Assembly: GCA_004296455.1 (NCBI GenBank)
Contig: AP018280.1
Coordinates: 4,650,001 to 4,714,000 of the forward strand
Length of the DNA: 64,000 bases
Reading direction: 5' to 3'
Source of the DNA: Calothrix sp. NIES-4101
Lineage (GTDB): Bacteria > Cyanobacteriota > Cyanobacteriia > Cyanobacteriales > Nostocaceae
Part shown: in pieces, positions 4,070 through 44,589 of the stretch
Numbering within the stretch: position 1 is the first letter of the stretch
Layout: each line of letters opens with the position of its first letter
The notes under the pieces: generated by a model
Database searches by the model: none
Seen by the model: the letters and a program-made list of their open reading frames with translations, nothing else
What the model was told of the DNA's origin: nothing
Made by a program: the position numbers and the translations under genes

Positions 4070-4750
4070 ATGGTGGAATTGATGCAAGTTAGTAATCAAG
4101 TAGCAATTACAGCCGCAAATAGCATCCATACAGCACCGGAATTATTAACAGAATTGGCTGGACATGAAGATATACAAGTTCGTCAAGCTGTGGCAGGAAA
4201 TCCTAATACTCCAACAGATGTGTTACTTCAACTTGCAGAAGAATTTCCGCAAGAGTTTGTTAAAAATCCCGTTTTACCTTTATTACAGTTAGAAAATCCT
4301 GAATTTCATAAACTAATTCCATATTCGGTCATACAGAATATTTTAGCTTGTGAAGGTGCTCCTCAAGAGTGGTTAAGATTGTTTGCTACTTATGTATGTT
4401 ATGACTATTTATTGGCAATTGTTCACAATCCTCAAGCCAGCAAGCAAGTGCTGCAATTAGTTGCAGAAAATGAATATTGCGGTGCTGTTATTCATGAATT
4501 GATAGAATTGCATGTAAATATTGCCGGAGAAATGAAGTCAGGCTGGCAAGAATATGCAGATAATAAGTTACAGTATATTCAAGATATTCTTAAATCTGAA
4601 TATTATCATCCTAGAGATAAAGGACAATATTATAAATTCACCTTTTGGGAATTGGGCCTGAGTTGCAACTTCGTAAAACTTCAGAATATGTACGAGAGAC
4701 TATCGCTAAATGTACCGACTCTCCACCAGAAAAATTACGGGAATTATTAA
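4070..4750 (+). CDS. Leucine-rich-repeat-variant (LRV/HEAT-like) protein, N-terminal part; probably one gene with the next ORF
   Basis: A 226-residue ORF. Residues 10-75 contain LRV/HEAT-like helical repeats (APELLTELAGHEDIQVRQAVAGNPNTPTDVLLQLA), and a second repeat lies near residue 118 (HNPQASKQVLQLVAENE). Its last 35 residues overlap the next ORF, which carries the same repeat type in another frame (codon phase 2 to phase 1). The overlap zone 4645-4750 encodes in phase 1 a much more family-like sequence (PELQLRKTSEYVRETIAKC) than the phase 2 tail. The simplest reading is one gene broken by a single-base loss near 4640-4660, or a sequencing error; overlapping genes are the alternative. Function unknown; such repeats bind proteins. 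Confidence 0.6.
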   Translation: MVELMQVSNQVAITAANSIHTAPELLTELAGHEDIQVRQAVAGNPNTPTDVLLQLAEEFPQEFVKNPVLPLLQLENPEFHKLIPYSVIQNILACEGAPQEWLRLFATYVCYDYLLAIVHNPQASKQVLQLVAENEYCGAVIHELIELHVNIAGEMKSGWQEYADNKLQYIQDILKSEYYHPRDKGQYYKFTFWELGLSCNFVKLQNMYERLSLNVPTLHQKNYGNY

Positions 4751-9192: not shown

Positions 9193-9591
9193 GTTTCAAT
9201 CCCTGATAGGGATTATTTTTAATTGCAATATAATCTAAATCTTTATTTAATTTAGAAAATAAGTTTCAATCCCTGATAGGGATTATTTTTAATTGCAATA
9301 GAAATTAAAGACAGTTTATTGTCTTTTCTTCCTGTTTCAATCCCTGATAGGGATTATTTTTAATTGCAATAGACACGCGATCGCAACGTAACTCTAAGAG
9401 AATGGAAGGTTGGTTTCAATCCCTGATAGGGATTATTTTTAATTGCAATAATGAATCACGCACAGATGATGCTTTCTTAGGCAGTTTCAATCCCTGATAG
9501 GGATTATTTTTAATTGCAATTTTTTATTGCCGAATAATATTCTTAGGGATAGCCGTTTCAATCCCTGATAGGGATTATTTTTAATTGCAAT
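9193..9591 (+). CRISPR. Orphan CRISPR array, six 37-bp repeats and five spacers
   Basis: Six identical 37-bp repeats start at 9193, 9263, 9334, 9413, 9484 and 9555. Each begins GTTTCAATCCC, contains the dyad AATCCC-TGATA-GGGATT and ends AATTGCAAT. Spacers are 33, 34, 42, 34 and 34 bp. The 3' end ATTGCAAT resembles the 8-nt handle left by Cas6 in type I and III systems, which suggests crRNA is read from the + strand. The dyad-plus-tail design is common in Nostocales. No cas gene occurs anywhere in the window, so processing must be in trans or the array is a relic. All repeats are perfect, so no degenerate trailer end marks the leader side. Confidence 0.96.
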
Positions 9592-36575: not shown

Positions 36576-37113
36576 TAAGAATTTCGCTAGCGATATTAAT
36601 TTTTCATTTATTTGGTAACTTTAAACTGAGCCTAGTATCTTCCACCACATTAGACTAAATTGAGAATTCTCAGATATTAAGCTTTGACAATTATTCCCGA
36701 AGATTTATTTGAACTAAAAACTGAGTTAATCTTGGTAAAATATCAGTTTTAATTGGTTCACAATTTTACAAAATTAAACGCAGAATTGATTATTTTGCCT
36801 GTTACTGAATCCTACTACAGAAATCCGGTTTGATTGATGAAAAAATTAAGTATTGTAGGATGCGTTAGGATGAAATCTGTAACGCATCCTTATTAAGGTT
36901 TTGGTGTGTTACGCTACCGCTAACTCACCCTACGGTACTAAATATAAATGTAAATTTTAGATTATTTTAAGCTTTAGCAATCGGATTCTGTAAAAATCGC
37001 CTGTATAAAGTCAATCAGAGACATATACAAGTAAAAACAAGACTACAGACAAGTTTCTTTGTCATTGCGAATTTTGCGTATTATTCTTGAAATAATTAAC
37101 TAATTGAAAATTG
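36576..37113. repeat. Intergenic region with two palindromic repeat units
   Basis: A perfect 11-bp stem AGGATGCGTTA/TAACGCATCCT (36857-36867 with 36880-36890) is followed by a second imperfect dyad, GTGTGTTA...TAACTCAC (about 36904-36927), ending CCTACGGTA. These resemble the GTGCGTTACGCT-type dispersed palindromes of cyanobacteria. No gene is seen in the 538 bp. Confidence 0.55.
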
Positions 37114-37788
37114 ATGTCACCGCACATACTATTAGTAGAAGATGAAGTCAAACTTGCTCGTTTTGTGGAGCTAGAGCTTGGCTATGAAGGGTATAAAGTG
37201 ACGATAGTACATGATGGATTAGCTGGCTTGGCTGCTGCCAAAGAGTCACAACCAGATTTACTGATTGTAGATTGGATGTTACCGAGTTTATCAGGCTTGG
37301 AAATTTGCCGCAAATTGCGAACAACTGGAGACCAAGTACCTGTAATATTATTAACAGCAAAGGACGCAGTTAGCGATCGCGTTGCCGGATTGGATGCGGG
37401 AGTCGATGACTACGTTGTCAAACCCTTTAGTGTGGAAGAATTATTAGCGCGAGTGAGAGCGCATTTACGCCGTACTCAATTAGCTGACCCAGATTTGCTA
37501 CAATTTGAAGACTTGAGTTTGCACAAGCGCACCAGAATTGTGAAACGCGGCGAAAAAAAGATTGAGTTGACAGCCAAAGAATTTGACTTGTTGGAATATT
37601 TACTACTGCATTCACGCCAAGTGATAACACGCGATCGCATTTTGGAATCCGTATGGGGATATGATTTTATGGGGGATTCCAATATTATTGAAGTTTATAT
37701 TCGCTATTTGCGTTTAAAGTTAGAAGCTAACCATGAAAAGCGTCTGATTCAAACAGTGCGAGGCGTTGGTTACGTTCTCCGTGAATAA
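37114..37788 (+). CDS. OmpR-family response regulator, orphan
   Basis: A 224-residue protein from ATG 37114. The receiver domain (1-118) has the acidic pocket (LLVEDE), the phosphorylated Asp in LLIVDWMLPSLSG, Thr/Ala in LLTAKDA and Lys in VVKPFS. The DNA-binding winged helix (130-222) ends RLIQTVRGVGYVLRE. It resembles RppA/ManR-type cyanobacterial regulators, but the target regulon cannot be told. No histidine kinase gene is adjacent and both flanking gaps exceed 500 bp. Confidence 0.88.
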   Translation: MSPHILLVEDEVKLARFVELELGYEGYKVTIVHDGLAGLAAAKESQPDLLIVDWMLPSLSGLEICRKLRTTGDQVPVILLTAKDAVSDRVAGLDAGVDDYVVKPFSVEELLARVRAHLRRTQLADPDLLQFEDLSLHKRTRIVKRGEKKIELTAKEFDLLEYLLLHSRQVITRDRILESVWGYDFMGDSNIIEVYIRYLRLKLEANHEKRLIQTVRGVGYVLRE

Positions 37789-38359: not shown

Positions 38360-39328
38360 ATGACTTATCTCGAAACCGCCGCCAACTTCTATAGTGAAGT
38401 CGCCCAAACCCCTCAAATCGGATTATGTTGTGTTCAAAGTACATCCCTTCAGCTACCAGGATTAAAAATTCCTCGGAAAATGCGGGAAATGAATTATGGT
38501 TGTGGTACAACAGTTCATCCTACAGAACTGAGTAACCAACCAACCGTTTTATATATCGGAGTTGGAGGAGGTTTAGAAGCCTTACAATTTGCCTACTTTT
38601 CCCGTCGTCCTGGTGCTATTATTGCGATCGATCCAGTTGCAGAAATGCGCGAAGCTGCTAAAAGTAATCTAGAAATCGCTGTCCCAGAAAATCCTTGGTT
38701 CGACACAAGTTTTGTGGAAATTCGTGCAGGTGATGCTTTTAATTTACCTGTTGCTGATGCTTCAGTTGACATAGTCGCTCAAAATTGCCTTTTCAATATT
38801 TTTGAACCCGAAGATTTAAACCGTGCATTAACAGAAGCATATCGAGTCTTGAAACCAGGTGGACGTTTGCAAATGAGTGATCCAATTTCGACTTGTCGAA
38901 TACCTTCACATTTACAACAAGATGAACGTTTGCGGGCGATGTGTTTATCAGGCGCACTTACCTATGAAGAATATATTCAAAAAATCATAAATGTTGGATT
39001 TGGTCAAGTAGAAATTCGTGCCCGTCGTCCCTATAGATTATTGAATGCTCAAACTTATAATTTATCCGAACATTTACTTTTAGAAAGTCTGGATTCTGTC
39101 TCATTTAAAGTTCCTATACCCAGTGATGGGGCTTGTGTTTTCACTGGGAAAACAGCAATTTATGCAGGTGCAGATAATTACTTTGATGATGGTGATGGAC
39201 ATATTCTCCAGCCTGGACTTCCCTTGTCTGTTTGCGATAAAACAGCCGCCAAATTCGCTAAAAATATGTCAGAACAAATTATGGTTACTGATTCCACGTG
39301 GCATTATGACGGTGGAGGTTGTTGTTAG
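38360..39328 (+). CDS. arsM: Arsenite methyltransferase of arsenosugar synthesis
   Basis: A 322-residue SAM-dependent methyltransferase. It has the cyanobacterial ArsM layout: N-terminal FYSEVAQTPQIGLCCVQST (paired Cys), REMNYGCGTTVHP, SAM motif I VLYIGVGGGLEALQFAYFSR, and AYRVLKPGGRLQMSDP with downstream Cys (STCRIPS, LRAMCLSGALT). A C-terminal extension ends YDGGGCC. It transfers methyl groups from SAM to trivalent arsenic, giving the dimethylarsenic precursor used by ArsS. arsS follows in the same direction but is now 2.85 kb away because of an inserted IS. Confidence 0.92.
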   Translation: MTYLETAANFYSEVAQTPQIGLCCVQSTSLQLPGLKIPRKMREMNYGCGTTVHPTELSNQPTVLYIGVGGGLEALQFAYFSRRPGAIIAIDPVAEMREAAKSNLEIAVPENPWFDTSFVEIRAGDAFNLPVADASVDIVAQNCLFNIFEPEDLNRALTEAYRVLKPGGRLQMSDPISTCRIPSHLQQDERLRAMCLSGALTYEEYIQKIINVGFGQVEIRARRPYRLLNAQTYNLSEHLLLESLDSVSFKVPIPSDGACVFTGKTAIYAGADNYFDDGDGHILQPGLPLSVCDKTAAKFAKNMSEQIMVTDSTWHYDGGGCC

Positions 39329-40505
39329 TAATTGTTAAGTTAGTTGGTTCTTCAGGAAGTTTTATGGAGTAAACAAATTAAATCCTGATTGTAAGATAGT
39401 AAAAATATAAAAGCTAAAGCTGTAATTACTGCTAAATAAGGCTTTAATAAATATAAACTATGTTGTAATAAGCCAATCAAGATATTTTATACTAGAAAAG
39501 TAAAATTTTAGGGGTGGCTATGAAATTTCCTGTAGAACAAATACTAAATCTTCCCGACATGAAAGTATTAGATTTTCAGGAAATAGAAGGGGGAGAAATT
39601 ATTATTACAATAGAAAAAGATGTAAAATACTCGACTTGCCCGCACTGTGGAAAGCCGACTTATAGTATACACCAAAGTCATTGGCGAATGATTCATGATT
39701 TACCTTGGAATAAAAAACCAGTACTGTTAAGAATGAATCGCCGCCAATTTAAATGCCACAAGTGTAAAAAAGTGTTTAGCGAGCAGCTAGATTTTATAGA
39801 CAAAAGTACATGTTATACGAAACGACTAGCACTCGATATAGTTGAGCAAGTATTGAATAGTAACGTTCATAGTGTTGCCAAGAGAAATGGATTGAGTGAT
39901 GACGAAGTAGAGTCAATGCTAAAAAAGCAGGTATCACAGATATTAAATATCAACCTAAGTCAGGTGAGAAGAATAGGAATAGATGAAATAGCATTAGTAA
40001 AAGGGCAAGGTAATTACTTGGCAGTAATAGTAGATTTAGATACTCGTAAACCAATTGAGATAGTGTGTTCGAGGAGAATAGAGGATATCCGCGAAGTGCT
40101 TATCGGTTGGGGAGTTGAGGTATTAGAAAGAATAGAAGAAGTAAGTATTGATCTCTGGAAAGCCTATAAAAACTTAGTAGAAGAACTAATGCCAAATGCC
40201 AATATCACAGCAGACAGATTTCATGTGATGAAACAGGTGAATGAAGAATTAGATAGTATGCGTAAAGCAGAGAAGAAAGCGGCAATGTCTTTAGAAGACA
40301 AATCAGAAAAAGCTCATAAATTAGAAGCTTTAAGTAAAAGTAAATATAGCTTGCTTAAAAACCAAGATGACTTAAATGAAAAGCAAAAAGATAAATTAGA
40401 ATCAGTGTTAAAAGTATCACCAAAGCTTGGAAAAATGCCTGACGGGGCGACAAAACAGTCTAGAAAGCTTATTTGGTAAAGAGTGTAGCGATTCGTGGTA
40501 AGAAA

Positions 40506-40538
40506 AGATAGGTCTAGTTATGTCAAGAAGACCTATCT
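40506..40538 (+). promoter_or_regulatory. Hairpin ending one base before the nested transposase start codon
   Basis: Perfect 10-bp arms AGATAGGTCT (40506-40515) and AGACCTATCT (40529-40538) with a 13-nt loop end immediately before ATG 40540. In a transcript entering from outside, the stem would occlude the ribosome site. This is the known self-limiting arrangement of IS10/IS50-type elements. Function here is inferred. Confidence 0.5.
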
Positions 40539-40539
40539 A

Positions 40540-41688
40540 ATGATAATGTTGCCTGAATTGTACCAAAAACATTTAAAAAGTCAACTCAGCCTTGCGGATT
40601 ACATCTTTCTTAAAATTTTGATTGCCCTGCTGCAATCAATTAAAAAAGTTAGTTTGGAAACCTTAGCTACAGTTCTACCAATTCCAATTACATTTGAAAG
40701 CCGGAGAAAGAGAATACAGAGGTTTCTATCATTACCAAACCTCTCAATTGAAAAAATTTGGTTCCCGATTGTTACCACATGGTTAGAGACAGAATTCACC
40801 TCCGAAAAAATAGTTCATGTAGTAATTGACCGTACAAATTGGGCTTGTGTAAATTTGTTTATGGTTAGTGTTGTTTGGGATAAAAGAGCGTTTCCAGTAT
40901 ATTTTGAATTATTACCCAAATTAGGTAGTAGTAATATTAATGAACAAACAGCAATTATTTCTAAAGTTTTACCAGTTTTCAAAAATCATAAAATTTGCGT
41001 ATTAGGAGACCGAGAATTTTGTTCGATAAAACTGGCAAACTGGCTTAGAGAAAGAAGCATTTACTTCTGTCTTCGTATTAAAAAGAATCATTTAGTTGAG
41101 ATGCAAACAGATATTTGGTTAGAATTAAATGAGCTAGGATTATCTCCAGGTGTCTCTTTCTTTTTGAAAGGAGTAAAAGTTACAAAATCTCAAGGTTTTA
41201 CAAGCTTTAATCTTGCATGTAAATGGAAGCGGAAAATCTTGGGAGTGGCACCCGAAGAAGGATGGTTTATTTTAACAAATTTAGATAGTTTAGAGTCGGC
41301 GATCGCTTACTATAAAAAAAGATTTGATATTGAGGAAATGTTTCGAGACTTTAAGAGTGGTGGTTATAATCTAGAGGGGACTAATGTATCTGGTGAACGG
41401 TTAATTGTTCTAATTACATTGATTGCGATTGCTTACACTTCTGCCACAATTCAAGGACAAGAAATAAAACGTAAAGGAATACAGAAATATGTTGGTCGTG
41501 TTAAAGAATATGGGCGAACCCAAAGGCGACATAGCAGTTTTTATATCGGCTTATACGGCAATAATTGGGTCAATTTTATGGAACCTTGTATAGAATTAGT
41601 AACCGAATTAATGAAATTTAATATCAATAAGCGAAAGTATTATCAACGAGGATTGAGAGCTATGAGGCTTATTTTATCTGCCTCCTAG
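40540..41688 (+). CDS. IS4-type DDE transposase (nested element)
   Basis: A 382-residue transposase from ATG 40540 (MIMLPELYQKHLKSQLSLAD); an in-frame GTG at 40495 would lengthen it through the hairpin region and is unlikely. Catalytic residues: VVIDRTNWACVN (Asp), CVLGDREFCSIKLANWL (Asp) and the YREK-like YYKKRFDIEEMFRDFKSGGYN (Glu). The gene is intact and on the same strand as the interrupted ISL3 gene. Confidence 0.9.
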   Translation: MIMLPELYQKHLKSQLSLADYIFLKILIALLQSIKKVSLETLATVLPIPITFESRRKRIQRFLSLPNLSIEKIWFPIVTTWLETEFTSEKIVHVVIDRTNWACVNLFMVSVVWDKRAFPVYFELLPKLGSSNINEQTAIISKVLPVFKNHKICVLGDREFCSIKLANWLRERSIYFCLRIKKNHLVEMQTDIWLELNELGLSPGVSFFLKGVKVTKSQGFTSFNLACKWKRKILGVAPEEGWFILTNLDSLESAIAYYKKRFDIEEMFRDFKSGGYNLEGTNVSGERLIVLITLIAIAYTSATIQGQEIKRKGIQKYVGRVKEYGRTQRRHSSFYIGLYGNNWVNFMEPCIELVTELMKFNINKRKYYQRGLRAMRLILSAS

Positions 41689-42179
41689 CGATTTTTGTCG
41701 CCCCGTCAGAAAAATGCACGAGCTTAAAGAGAAGTTCCGTGATATATTTCAAACAACTACATCTTGGGGAGATAGCATAACAAAATTATTAGATTGGATG
41801 TGTGAATCCGAATCATACTTTCCAAAAAGTCTAGGTACAATTGTTCGATGGTTTGGTGAAATAGTTGGTTATTTTGACGGTAGAACTACCAGTGGAGTAG
41901 TGGAAGGCATTAACAACAAGCTTAAATTGATTAAAAGACTTGGATATGGCTTTCGTAACTTTAGTAATTTTAGATTACGTAGCCTATTAAATTGGCATTT
42001 TAATGTTAATGCTCCATAAAATAGACCGAAGAACCAGTTAGTTTTAGGTAAAGTGCAATTACTGCTAACTTTCAGAGTTTATCTTCTGTCAAAATTATTT
42101 AGTAGTATTGTATATTTTATCTTGCCGACTTAATCATACTATTTTTCATATGTTTATTAATCAAAGATTCGTTTAAATA

Positions 42180-43169
42180 ATGCAACAAGAAATAGTATTT
42201 ACACCATTTGAGCAAAAAGCGAATTCTCAATTAACCAAACAGCAAATTACAGTTTTGCAGGTGAACTTAGGTAAACGTTGTAATCTTGCCTGTTCTCATT
42301 GTCATGTCGAAGCTAGCCCCCAACGAACTGAAGAATTATCTCCAGAAATATGTGAACAAATAATTGAATTAATTAATAAATTTCCACAAATTAAAATAGT
42401 TGATTTTACTGGTGGTGCGCCGGAAATGAACTATGGCTTTAAACCATTAGTAGAAGCTGCAAGAGAAAATCATAAACAAGTAATAGTCAGGTCAAATTTA
42501 ACTATTTATTTTGAAGCTGGATTTACTGATTTACCCGAATATTTTACCCAGCATCAAGTACGAGTTGTGGCTTCTTTACCCTGCTATTTAGCTGATAACG
42601 TTGATAAAATGCGTGGAAAAGGCGTATTTGATAAATCAATTCAAGCCTTACAATGGCTAAATAAACTTGGCTATAGTAGTAACCCAAATTTAATTTTAGA
42701 TTTGGTATATAATCCTCAACTACCCGTCAATGAAAACTTTTCTTTAACTCCTAACCAGGCAAAATTAGAAAGCGATTACAAAAAATTATTAAAAACTAAC
42801 TTTGATATTGTCTTCAATAATTTATTCACAATTACCAACCTACCAGTAGGTAGAACTAAATTCCACCTAGAACGGACTAAACTTTATCTTCCCTATCTAA
42901 AATTTCTTGAATCCCATTTTAATCCTGTAACTATAGATGGTTTAATGTGCCGCAATGAACTCTCTATTGATTATTTGGGTAATGTGTATGACTGCGACTT
43001 CAACCAGATGATGAACTTAGCCGCAAAAACCTCTAGTGGTGAAATTTTGACAGTAAAAAATTTACTAGCGTTAGGTAGTTTAGATGTCATTGAAAAAATA
43101 CAGACAGCTGCCTATTGTTACGGTTGTACGGCTGGTAGCGGTTCTAGTTGTGGTGGAGCCTTAGTATAA
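42180..43169 (+). CDS. arsS: Arsenosugar biosynthesis radical SAM protein
   Basis: A 329-residue radical SAM enzyme with the cluster motif CNLACSHCHVEA (Cx3Cx2C) near residue 35, the GGAPE motif (VDFTGGAPEMN) and a C-terminal cysteine-rich region (YDCDFNQMMN, YCYGCTAGSGSSCGG) for auxiliary Fe-S binding. ArsS is thought to join the 5'-deoxyadenosyl group to dimethylarsinous acid made by ArsM, the first committed arsenosugar step. The normal ArsM-ArsS operon is interrupted here by the composite IS at 39346-42035, so expression may now depend on a promoter in 42044-42179 or within the IS. Confidence 0.92.
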   Translation: MQQEIVFTPFEQKANSQLTKQQITVLQVNLGKRCNLACSHCHVEASPQRTEELSPEICEQIIELINKFPQIKIVDFTGGAPEMNYGFKPLVEAARENHKQVIVRSNLTIYFEAGFTDLPEYFTQHQVRVVASLPCYLADNVDKMRGKGVFDKSIQALQWLNKLGYSSNPNLILDLVYNPQLPVNENFSLTPNQAKLESDYKKLLKTNFDIVFNNLFTITNLPVGRTKFHLERTKLYLPYLKFLESHFNPVTIDGLMCRNELSIDYLGNVYDCDFNQMMNLAAKTSSGEILTVKNLLALGSLDVIEKIQTAAYCYGCTAGSGSSCGGALV

Positions 43170-43288
43170 ACTGCAGCACCAAACTCCAAATTGGCTACAT
43201 TCAACTTTTAGCGATATACATCTATGTGACAGTTTCACCTGCTCGTTACCAAAATTGTTACGGGCGATCGCTTGCCAATGAATGCGTT

Positions 43289-43364
43289 TAAAATTACCTA
43301 CAGTTATGCTTCTCACATTACCCCGAAAACCGTGGATCCCTCCTAAAAGCCACGGTTTTTATTT
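43289..43364 (+). ncRNA. Yfr1-like small RNA, copy 1 (divergent)
   Basis: A -10-like TAAAAT at 43289-43294 is followed by a short unpaired segment with CTTCTCACATTACCCC (43309-43324). A strong terminator hairpin AAAACCGTGG/CCACGGTTTT (43326-43335 with 43350-43359) then leads into T-rich sequence. The predicted transcript is about 43301-43364, roughly 60 nt. The layout of short leader, single-stranded CUCCUCACA-type core and 3' terminator is that of cyanobacterial Yfr1, but this core deviates by one base. The spacing matches copy 2 exactly. A conserved GTTACCAAAATTGTTAC lies 44 bp upstream of the -10. Confidence 0.55.
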
Positions 43365-43444
43365 TTCGCTTTTATTCCTTGGTTACAGCAAAAAAAACTT
43401 GTTACCAAAATTGTTACCAGGTCTGCTGTCCTCGGAATTGCCTC

Positions 43445-43513
43445 TATGATGATATGTAGTTAAGCTCCTCACATCACACTAAAAGCCGTGAAATATAATT
43501 TCACGGCTTTTTA
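43445..43513 (+). ncRNA. Yfr1-like small RNA, copy 2
   Basis: A -10-like TATGAT at 43445-43450 precedes CTCCTCACATCACAC (43465-43479), close to the ultra-conserved Yfr1 core ACUCCUCACACxxC. A 13-bp perfect terminator stem AAAAGCCGTGAAA/TTTCACGGCTTTT (43481-43493 with 43499-43511) follows and ends in T. The predicted RNA is about 43457-43513, close to the size of known Yfr1 (about 55-70 nt). Yfr1 is a trans-acting antisense regulator that pairs through the core. Copy 1 lies 156 bp upstream with the same promoter-to-core spacing. Confidence 0.68.
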
Positions 43514-43651
43514 CTAATATTAGTTGTCAAATATCCTTATTCTCCCGTTTACCCCTGGGATTTGCACTAAATTTACGAGTCGAAAACGCTAAAGCACAAC
43601 TACGAACAATTTCCTATTGCACCATTCATTTTGCTCTAGATAGTCCACTAC

Positions 43652-43764
43652 CAATACGGTTCAGTTAGGGAGAGGAAGGGTAAGAATAAGACTTAATCAC
43701 CTATACGCTGTTGATTCTAAAAGCTAACCGCTAATAGCCATTTTTGCTTAACCGAACCGTATTG
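43652..43764. mobile_element. 113-bp MITE-like element with a near-perfect 10-bp target duplication
   Basis: Left end CAATACGGTTCAGTTAGG (43652) and right end CTTAACCGAACCGTATTG (to 43764) are inverted with 16 of 18 matches. The flanks AGTCCACTAC (43642-43651) and AGTTCACTAC (43765-43774) match at 9 of 10. There is no coding capacity. Together with the two small-RNA units it fills most of the 787-bp gap between arsS and the next gene. Confidence 0.7.
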
Positions 43765-43956
43765 AGTTCACTACAGTGCTACAGTGCTTAATTTTTGTCA
43801 TAAACCAAATCTGATTTCTATATCTATATGCTTGAGTATAAATCTTGAAATTAGTCATAGAGATTTCCGAAATAATCTAATGGGAATTTGAAGTCATTAC
43901 CATCAACAAAAATATAGACTCATCCAATTTCTCTACTAATTTTCAAGGATATAATA

Positions 43957-44589
43957 ATGGCTTACACTGCTTATATTTCTACCAAAGAAGGTGATAATCT
44001 CAGCGTTCGTAATCGTGCCAATGGCGACGTTGTCACATCTTTAACTAACGGCACAGAAGTAACAGTAATCAGTGAACCTATATTTGCTGGTTCGAGAAAT
44101 TGGGTACAGATTGGCACAAATCGCTGGGTTGCCCATGAATTTTTAACAGTGATTCGGAGTGCAAAATTAGTAGCCAAAAGAACTACAGAAACTATTAACG
44201 GTTTAAGAATATATCAAACTAGATTAATTGATGGCACTGGTAAAGTAATTAATACAGTTCGTGCAGTTTCTGGTCGCGCAAATAAACAAACACCATCGCA
44301 TATAGCCGGTTCACAAACACCCTTACCATTTGGTATTTATAAATTTGATTTTCTTGGTTCAGTTGAATTTAAAGGTGGAGAATTTGGTGGTGTTTGGTCA
44401 CCAGTCACACCAATTTTTAAAACTGGACGTTCGGAAATTGGCGTTCACTACGATCCATCGGCTTTATTAAACAACGCCGATAGTGGTACGGCTGGGTGTT
44501 TTGCCACTCCAACTACTAAAGAAAAAGATATTATGACTAACTTTATTCGTACTTATAAACCGACCCATTTAATTGTTTATGAAGGTTAA
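43957..44589 (+). CDS. SH3-domain protein with an L,D-transpeptidase (YkuD)-like C-terminal half
   Basis: A 210-residue protein. Residues 1-65 look like a bacterial SH3 domain (GDNLSVRNRANGDVVTSLTN, then VQIGTNRWVAHEFL). Residues about 80-208 resemble YkuD: LPFGIYKF, then IGVHYDPSALLNNADSGTAG and CFATPT, giving the His...Ser/Thr-x-GC signature of cysteine transpeptidases. No signal peptide is present, which is unusual for a wall enzyme, so it may act on another substrate or be exported unconventionally. It is preceded by the MITE and faces petA. Confidence 0.6.
   Translation: MAYTAYISTKEGDNLSVRNRANGDVVTSLTNGTEVTVISEPIFAGSRNWVQIGTNRWVAHEFLTVIRSAKLVAKRTTETINGLRIYQTRLIDGTGKVINTVRAVSGRANKQTPSHIAGSQTPLPFGIYKFDFLGSVEFKGGEFGGVWSPVTPIFKTGRSEIGVHYDPSALLNNADSGTAGCFATPTTKEKDIMTNFIRTYKPTHLIVYEG

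Follow-up and report, generated by a model that had tools for sequence, protein, structure and literature searches.

The window, i.e. the 64,000-nucleotide stretch of the Calothrix sp. NIES-4101 genome that was analysed here (contig AP018280.1, positions 4,650,001 to 4,714,000), carries a tandem pair of short units on the plus strand, each consisting of an upstream repeat, a -10-like hexamer, a Yfr1-like core and a hairpin. The gene directly upstream of the pair is arsS; farther upstream, beyond two transposase genes, lie arsM and the gene for an OmpR-type response regulator. The features, in coordinates of the window, are the following.

37111..37788, + strand: OmpR-type response regulator, candidate activator (PF00072, PF00486; closest NCBIfam model NblR, 278.5 bits, below its cut-off of 300)
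38360..39328, + strand: arsM, arsenosugar-type arsenite methyltransferase (NF038099, 575.2 bits, cut-off 400)
42180..43169, + strand: arsS, arsenosugar biosynthesis radical SAM protein (TIGR04167, 419.6 bits, cut-off 300)
43245..43261, + strand: upstream element of copy 1, GTTAC-N7-GTTAC, candidate activator site (direct reading and repeat search; kept in relatives)
43289..43294, + strand: -10-like TAAAAT of copy 1, two mismatches to the TATGAT common in relatives
43301..43366, + strand: predicted sRNA of copy 1, about 66 nt, its ends placed from the -10 and the terminator
43309..43321, + strand: altered Yfr1-like seed CUUCUCACAUUAC of copy 1, predicted to be mostly unpaired
43326..43359, + strand: terminator hairpin of copy 1 with CCCUCC in its loop (repeat search, folding)
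43401..43417, + strand: upstream element of copy 2, the same 17-mer as in copy 1
43445..43450, + strand: -10-like TATGAT of copy 2
43457..43512, + strand: predicted sRNA of copy 2, about 56 nt, with ends likewise predicted
43465..43477, + strand: seed CUCCUCACAUCAC of copy 2, predicted to be unpaired
43481..43511, + strand: terminator hairpin of copy 2 with 14-bp arms (folding; stem covariation in the RNA family)

The interval between arsM and arsS (39514-42019, plus strand) contains two transposase ORFs, one of the ISL3 and one of the IS4 type, and an ORF of 101 aa; the latter may be the remaining part of the ISL3 gene, which would point to nested insertions. Downstream of the pair (43957-44589, plus strand) is a 210-aa ORF whose match to SH3_3 stays below threshold (24.5 bits, cut-off 27), and elsewhere in the window (9193-9591, minus strand) there is a CRISPR array, six repeats of which exceed the Rfam CRISPR-DR5 gathering score with 54.7 bits each.

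The two units are 156 nt apart. Direct reading and a repeat search place GTTACCAAAATTGTTAC at 43245 and 43401, the -10-like hexamers TAAAAT and TATGAT at 43289 and 43445, each 44 nt from the start of the element, and the cores CTTCTCACATTAC (copy 1) and CTCCTCACATCAC (copy 2) at 43309 and 43465, each 20 nt from the hexamer. Hairpin arms follow 17 nt after the start of the core in copy 1 (43326-43335/43350-43359) and 16 nt after it in copy 2 (43481-43494/43498-43511). Copy 1 folds with -14.2 kcal/mol (z -2.9 and -3.5) and copy 2 with -18.1 and -17.6 kcal/mol (z -5.6 and -5.0), and in both cases none of 200 shuffles was as good. Direct reading, repeat search and folding therefore bear out the original prediction of two units with these motifs, equal spacings and hairpins, all coordinates of which were correct. 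With up to three mismatches the element occurs three times in the window, against 0.45 expected, and the two exact occurrences are those of the units; GTTACNAAANYTGTTAC without mismatch is found only at the two units in the entire 7.6 Mb genome, and CTYCTCACATYAC occurs exactly twice in the genome, both times at the units, against once for a control. Taken by itself and with two mismatches allowed, the core is no more frequent in the window than chance would give (6 against 4.07; 21/100 shuffles), and simple sigma-70 and terminator scans of 42100-44000 flagged neither unit, so that the evidence for the units lies in the ordered combination of motifs and in its conservation.

The pair had been taken for tandem Yfr1 genes, and a covariance-model search had been proposed as the check. 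This identification falls, as the Rfam Yfr1 model (RF01116) gave no match to the units, neither at its gathering score (38 bits) nor at E <= 10, and the genome's own Yfr1 was found elsewhere with 61.8 bits (G000:C1:6084705). Yfr1 is defined by two stem-loops with an unpaired stretch between them (PMC2190773, in part). The genome's own Yfr1 folds in this way, with an exact ACUCCUCACAC between its stem-loops; the two-stem-loop architecture was predicted in neither unit, each of which folds as a terminator hairpin alone. The ultraconserved ACUCCUCACAC is exact in neither copy, the units reading GCUUCUCACAU and GCUCCUCACAU; compared with the published sequence, copy 1 differs at three positions, not at the single one attributed to it, and copy 2 at two. 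The guaB-trxA neighbourhood of Yfr1 is likewise not found at the units, which adjoin arsS. With a close seed and a free 5' part followed by a terminator, the units might still be true, duplicated Yfr1 genes; but the missing Rfam match, the missing 5' stem-loop, the inexact 11-mer and a different promoter element have already largely refuted this reading, to which we give hardly any credence. The units resemble Yfr1 as short cyanobacterial sRNAs with an unpaired CUCCUCACAC-type core and a terminator hairpin, and differ from it in lacking the 5' stem-loop and the Rfam match, in the two and three changes in the 11-mer and in having an upstream element of their own. They look like members of a separate single-hairpin family, not like extra copies of Yfr1.

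Related units are widespread among relatives. A BLAST search with 43200-43530 gave a match in 29 of 60 relatives, and the pattern AGTTAAGN{0,1}CTCCTCACACYAYA, run across named genomes, retrieved 92 stretches, which in every source inspected came from Nostocales-type or uncultured cyanobacteria. Including the window, 117 loci chosen by the window sequence or its seed hold 172 units, which merge to 146 distinct ones, with two units in 55 loci and one in 62; seed frequencies in this set are biased, because the retrieval of loci L034-L125 used an exact pattern of which the CTCCTCACAC seed is a part. The common architecture is GTTAC-N7-GTTAC, a -10, a short leader, an unpaired CUCCUCACAC-type seed and a terminator. 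Aligning 49 units shows conservation of the upstream repeat, the -10, the leader, the core and the stem of the terminator, with variable spacers. The terminator stem covaries: 9 of its 13 pairs are changed on both sides (45 such cells) and 93.0% of cells are paired, a level of covariation reached by 0/500 shuffles, with slid versions of the stem being 43-57% paired. The proposal that spacing and motifs appear selected finds support in this comparison: relatives retain the motifs in their order, the intervening DNA diverges, and covariation is seen in the stem. A mini-ORF from the AUG of copy 1 was set aside, its frame shifting (L005) or stopping at once (L030) in aligned variants, as judged by eye.

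For a wider survey we built a covariance model of 129 positions, the element included (R1), the counts of which are not independent of the motif because its sequences were picked by element and core. Both window units are part of its alignment and hence match by construction (copy 1: 43243-43374, 95.5 bits; copy 2: 43399-43525, 116.8 bits). R1 matches were found in 87 of 388 genomes of the order, i.e. in 60/71 of the window's taxonomic family and in 27/317 others, the latter comprising 17/20 in f15, 6/6 in f12 and one each in f4, f8, f18 and f21. A draw across the class gave matches in 26 of 388 genomes, five of them outside the order and with weak scores (33.9 to 42.5 bits). Two R1 matches are present in 28 of the 60 matched genomes of the window's family, within 1 kb of each other in 24. 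A tandem pair had been considered unusual; with two units in nearly half of the 117 loci and in these 24 genomes, it is not. As units in this family often lie behind arsS, singly or in tandem, the pair is not peculiar to Calothrix sp. NIES-4101. Because many relatives carry the genes, they appear to represent a real and little-described regulatory RNA family, and not additional Yfr1. A third Yfr1-motif unit is present in the same genome (L217, 3980-4102, i.e. G000:C1:3661479-3661601), with CTCCTCACACCACACC and a terminator-like hairpin; it has no GTTAC element, scores 33.5 bits with R1 and has two tRNA genes upstream.

The units fall into types according to their place in a pair. In pairs, the second unit is always of type B (47 distinct) and the first always of type A (41) or A' (6). 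On a tree of 54 units with many weak inner branches, the A' units cluster together (89/96), and two changes are required for each of A and B, which indicates that the copies follow position, not genome. To judge from their sequences, the copies in the window are most likely old paralogues, copy 1 belonging to a variant with C-to-U seed changes.

The upstream GTTAC repeat had been put forward as a candidate activator site, and this proposal is strengthened. Exact copies of the element, GTTACCAAAAYTGTTAC, number 48 across the 388 genomes of the order, and 47 of them lie inside an R1 match; R1 contains the element, but its matches span the whole 129 positions. The lone exception (G153:C7:2573167) has no unit within 300 bases behind it and lies in apparently coding DNA. 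Within one mismatch, the element is present in 80/85 distinct type-B, 20/55 type-A and 6/6 type-A' units and in 30 of the 33 R1 matches outside the window's family; 35/55 distinct type-A units have at least two mismatches. An exact TATGAT is found in 62/85 B, 49/55 A and 0/6 A' units. A genome-wide regulon of the element was set aside, as near matches of GTTACNAAANYTGTTAC (up to two mismatches) are not in excess in the organism's own genome, with 82 sites against 101 for a control pattern. Two binding proteins were also set aside: HLR1/RpaB, since HLR1 has a period of 10 bp and the element one of 12, and NtcA, since its partial consensus GTA-N8-TAC is absent. A GTG-N8-TAC site is mentioned in PMC3610870 (in part).

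Small RNAs with the Yfr1 motif have been reported from Prochlorococcus, Synechocystis and Nostoc, including Syr5 and two transcription start sites of Nostoc PCC 7120 (PMC6778093, in part), and Yfr10, Yfr12 and Yfr18 are published Yfr1-motif RNAs other than Yfr1, Yfr12 having C-to-U seed variants (PMC2518516, in part). In the accessible portions of these accounts, Yfr10, Yfr12, Yfr18, Syr5 and the Nostoc start sites 2515196r and 3750139f likewise carry the Yfr1 motif in a non-Yfr1 RNA, and Yfr12 shares with the window copies C-to-U changes in the motif; Yfr10-like RNAs, however, are described there without such an element or arsS neighbourhood, those of Prochlorococcus adjoining Yfr2-type genes. 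One of the two Nostoc start sites (2515196r or 3750139f) may belong to this locus. NsiR1 is similarly a small RNA from a tandem array in Nostocales, but its array has 12 repeats before hetF (PMC3610870, in part), and it is HetR-dependent. An sRNA behind arsS, the GTTAC element or the tandem pair is not described in the literature searched, which covered passages or sections of the papers and does not prove absence. The units could therefore belong to the loose published group of Yfr1-motif RNAs, with no special shared activation and with the element as an accident of duplication. The occurrence of such RNAs in the same three genera, the C-to-U variants of Yfr12 and the poorly kept element of most type-A units are in keeping with this; the well-kept element of type-B units and of matches outside the window's family, and its near confinement to the units, argue against it, and we consider it unlikely. 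A shared activator acting on the element is the reading that we prefer.

The seed is less constant than the element. Among the 121 R1 matches, the seed is exactly CTCCTCACAC in 70 of 88 matches within the window's family and in 6 of 33 outside it, and it is altered in both window copies; these seed and element counts are biased towards the element, and the contrast between the two is partly built in because R1 includes the element. Of the 18 altered seeds within the family, 16 have C-to-T changes only. Outside it, common seeds are CTCCTCATGC, CTCCTTAGAC and CTCCTTCAG, and the seed is mostly reduced to CUCCU or UUCCU, which is evidence against a single, fixed Yfr1 function throughout the RNA family. 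Loci L197-L213 and L216, which likewise lie outside the window's family, have preserved the element better than the seed, which often reads CUCCUUAGAC, CUCCUCAUGC or CUCCUUCAG. Within pairs, seed and element seem to part company, with A keeping the seed and often losing the element and A' doing the converse, in a comparison where the seeds are biased by the retrieval pattern.

Copy 1 represents the variant (CUUCUCACAU) with an intact element and an altered seed; the seed of copy 2 has one C-to-U change. The A' seed CTTCTCACAT is found in eight genomes of four genera (g1, g20, g30 and g62) with the element within one mismatch in each, and CCTCC is present in the hairpin loop in seven of these eight genomes, against 0/55 A and 0/85 B units. 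A tandem pair with an altered first copy also lies away from arsS in another genus (L223, about 4117-4393, genome G249), near a gene that we take from its sequence to be smpB-like. The calculated binding energies, which compare idealised complements and not real targets, are -26.1 kcal/mol for Yfr1, -23.8 for copy 2 and -18.8 for copy 1 at a site perfect for the Yfr1 core, and -21.1 for copy 1, -12.5 for copy 2 and -8.9 kcal/mol for Yfr1 at a site perfect for copy 1. According to these calculations G-U pairs allow both copies to go on binding Yfr1-type sites, and copy 1 might gain targets while keeping some old ones. The earlier suggestion that the pair serves two target sets is a possible one. 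C-to-U is also the commonest kind of mutation and a re-aiming of copy 1 is therefore suggestive only. The core of Yfr1 mediates repression of most of the targets tested in Nostoc, and a CCUC-to-AAAA change strongly reduces this repression (PMC6974561, in part). Expression or activity of copy 1 may be weak, because its -10 departs from TATGAT and its altered CUUCUC lies where mutation of Yfr1 mattered. The weaker -10, the changed seed and the lower R1 score of copy 1 (95.5 against 116.8 bits) would also suit a decaying copy without function; this is improbable in view of the recurrence of the variant in eight genomes of four genera, with the element kept in all and the CCUCC loop in seven, and we favour a functional variant.

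The first core lies about 140 nt behind arsS on the same strand. Among 91 unit-bearing loci retrieved by the pattern, 10 show no ORF upstream within the stretch viewed; ArsS on the same strand is the closest ORF on that side in 59 of the 81 evaluable loci and not in the other 22. Among up to three upstream ORFs, ArsM is present in 39 loci, a response-regulator cluster in 18 and a PiT-type phosphate permease in 17, the Pfam assignment having been made for one permease. The arsM gene of Nostoc is alr3095 (PMC5258700, in part). As the arsS family cut-off is exceeded in 357 of 388 genomes, the presence of arsS as such is uninformative. Among the arsS matches listed, which cover 41 of the 87 R1-matched genomes, an R1 match lies within 800 nt downstream of arsS in 30/33 genomes of the window's family and in 0/8 outside it, so that the link to arsS is a trait of this family; it may be one of position without function. 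The same-strand position close behind arsS, here and in many genomes, might mean that the units are only intrinsic terminators of arsS read-through, an outcome that the original prediction had named as fatal to it. Against this stand the promoter-like elements of the units, their conserved unpaired core and their occurrence away from arsS, both in the 22 loci and in the eight outside genomes just mentioned, and we regard mere termination of read-through as highly improbable.

Given the motifs, spacing, conservation, stem covariation, neighbourhood and distribution observed here, the pair probably encodes, in tandem, two short sRNAs that act in trans by base pairing, each gene having an activated promoter of its own. 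The anatomy of the units and the example of Yfr1 suggest their transcription, an activator, base pairing and targets. Each sRNA would be made from its own promoter, which has no conserved -35 and in which GTTAC-N7-GTTAC stands about 28 bp upstream of the -10; the most plausible role of this repeat is to bind a single activator common to both copies. From the -10, RNA polymerase would then produce an RNA of 56-66 nt: a short single-stranded 5' part that contains the seed and, behind it, a single terminator hairpin. This seed would base-pair at translation-start regions that are rich in purines (GGAG-type) and mostly lower translation, as the same motif does in Yfr1. By calculation, copy 1 would bind sites closed to Yfr1 and also, because its seed changes are C-to-U, still bind Yfr1-type sites through G-U.

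On the sequence evidence, this is a real, conserved sRNA family that is partly anticipated in print, and the element and the seed-variant copy are its new points. A bolder proposal, which we consider possible but doubtful, is that of an order-wide sRNA family set by its promoter element, with one activator and with seeds free to change, in which copy 1 of four genera (CUUCUCACAU and the CCUCC loop) has been redirected to a further set of targets, linking Yfr1-type control of the envelope with the arsenosugar/phosphate neighbourhood. In Nostoc, the conserved regulator Yfr1 controls envelope genes and is bound by Yfr2 (PMC6974561, in part). If a second, separately controlled family reaches overlapping sites, part of the envelope regulation by Yfr1 would be conditional. 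Since the copies are paired, keep their positions and differ in seed, they are a natural test case for the divergence of sRNA seeds after duplication, and the shared element would provide a concrete bait in the search for a cyanobacterial activator.
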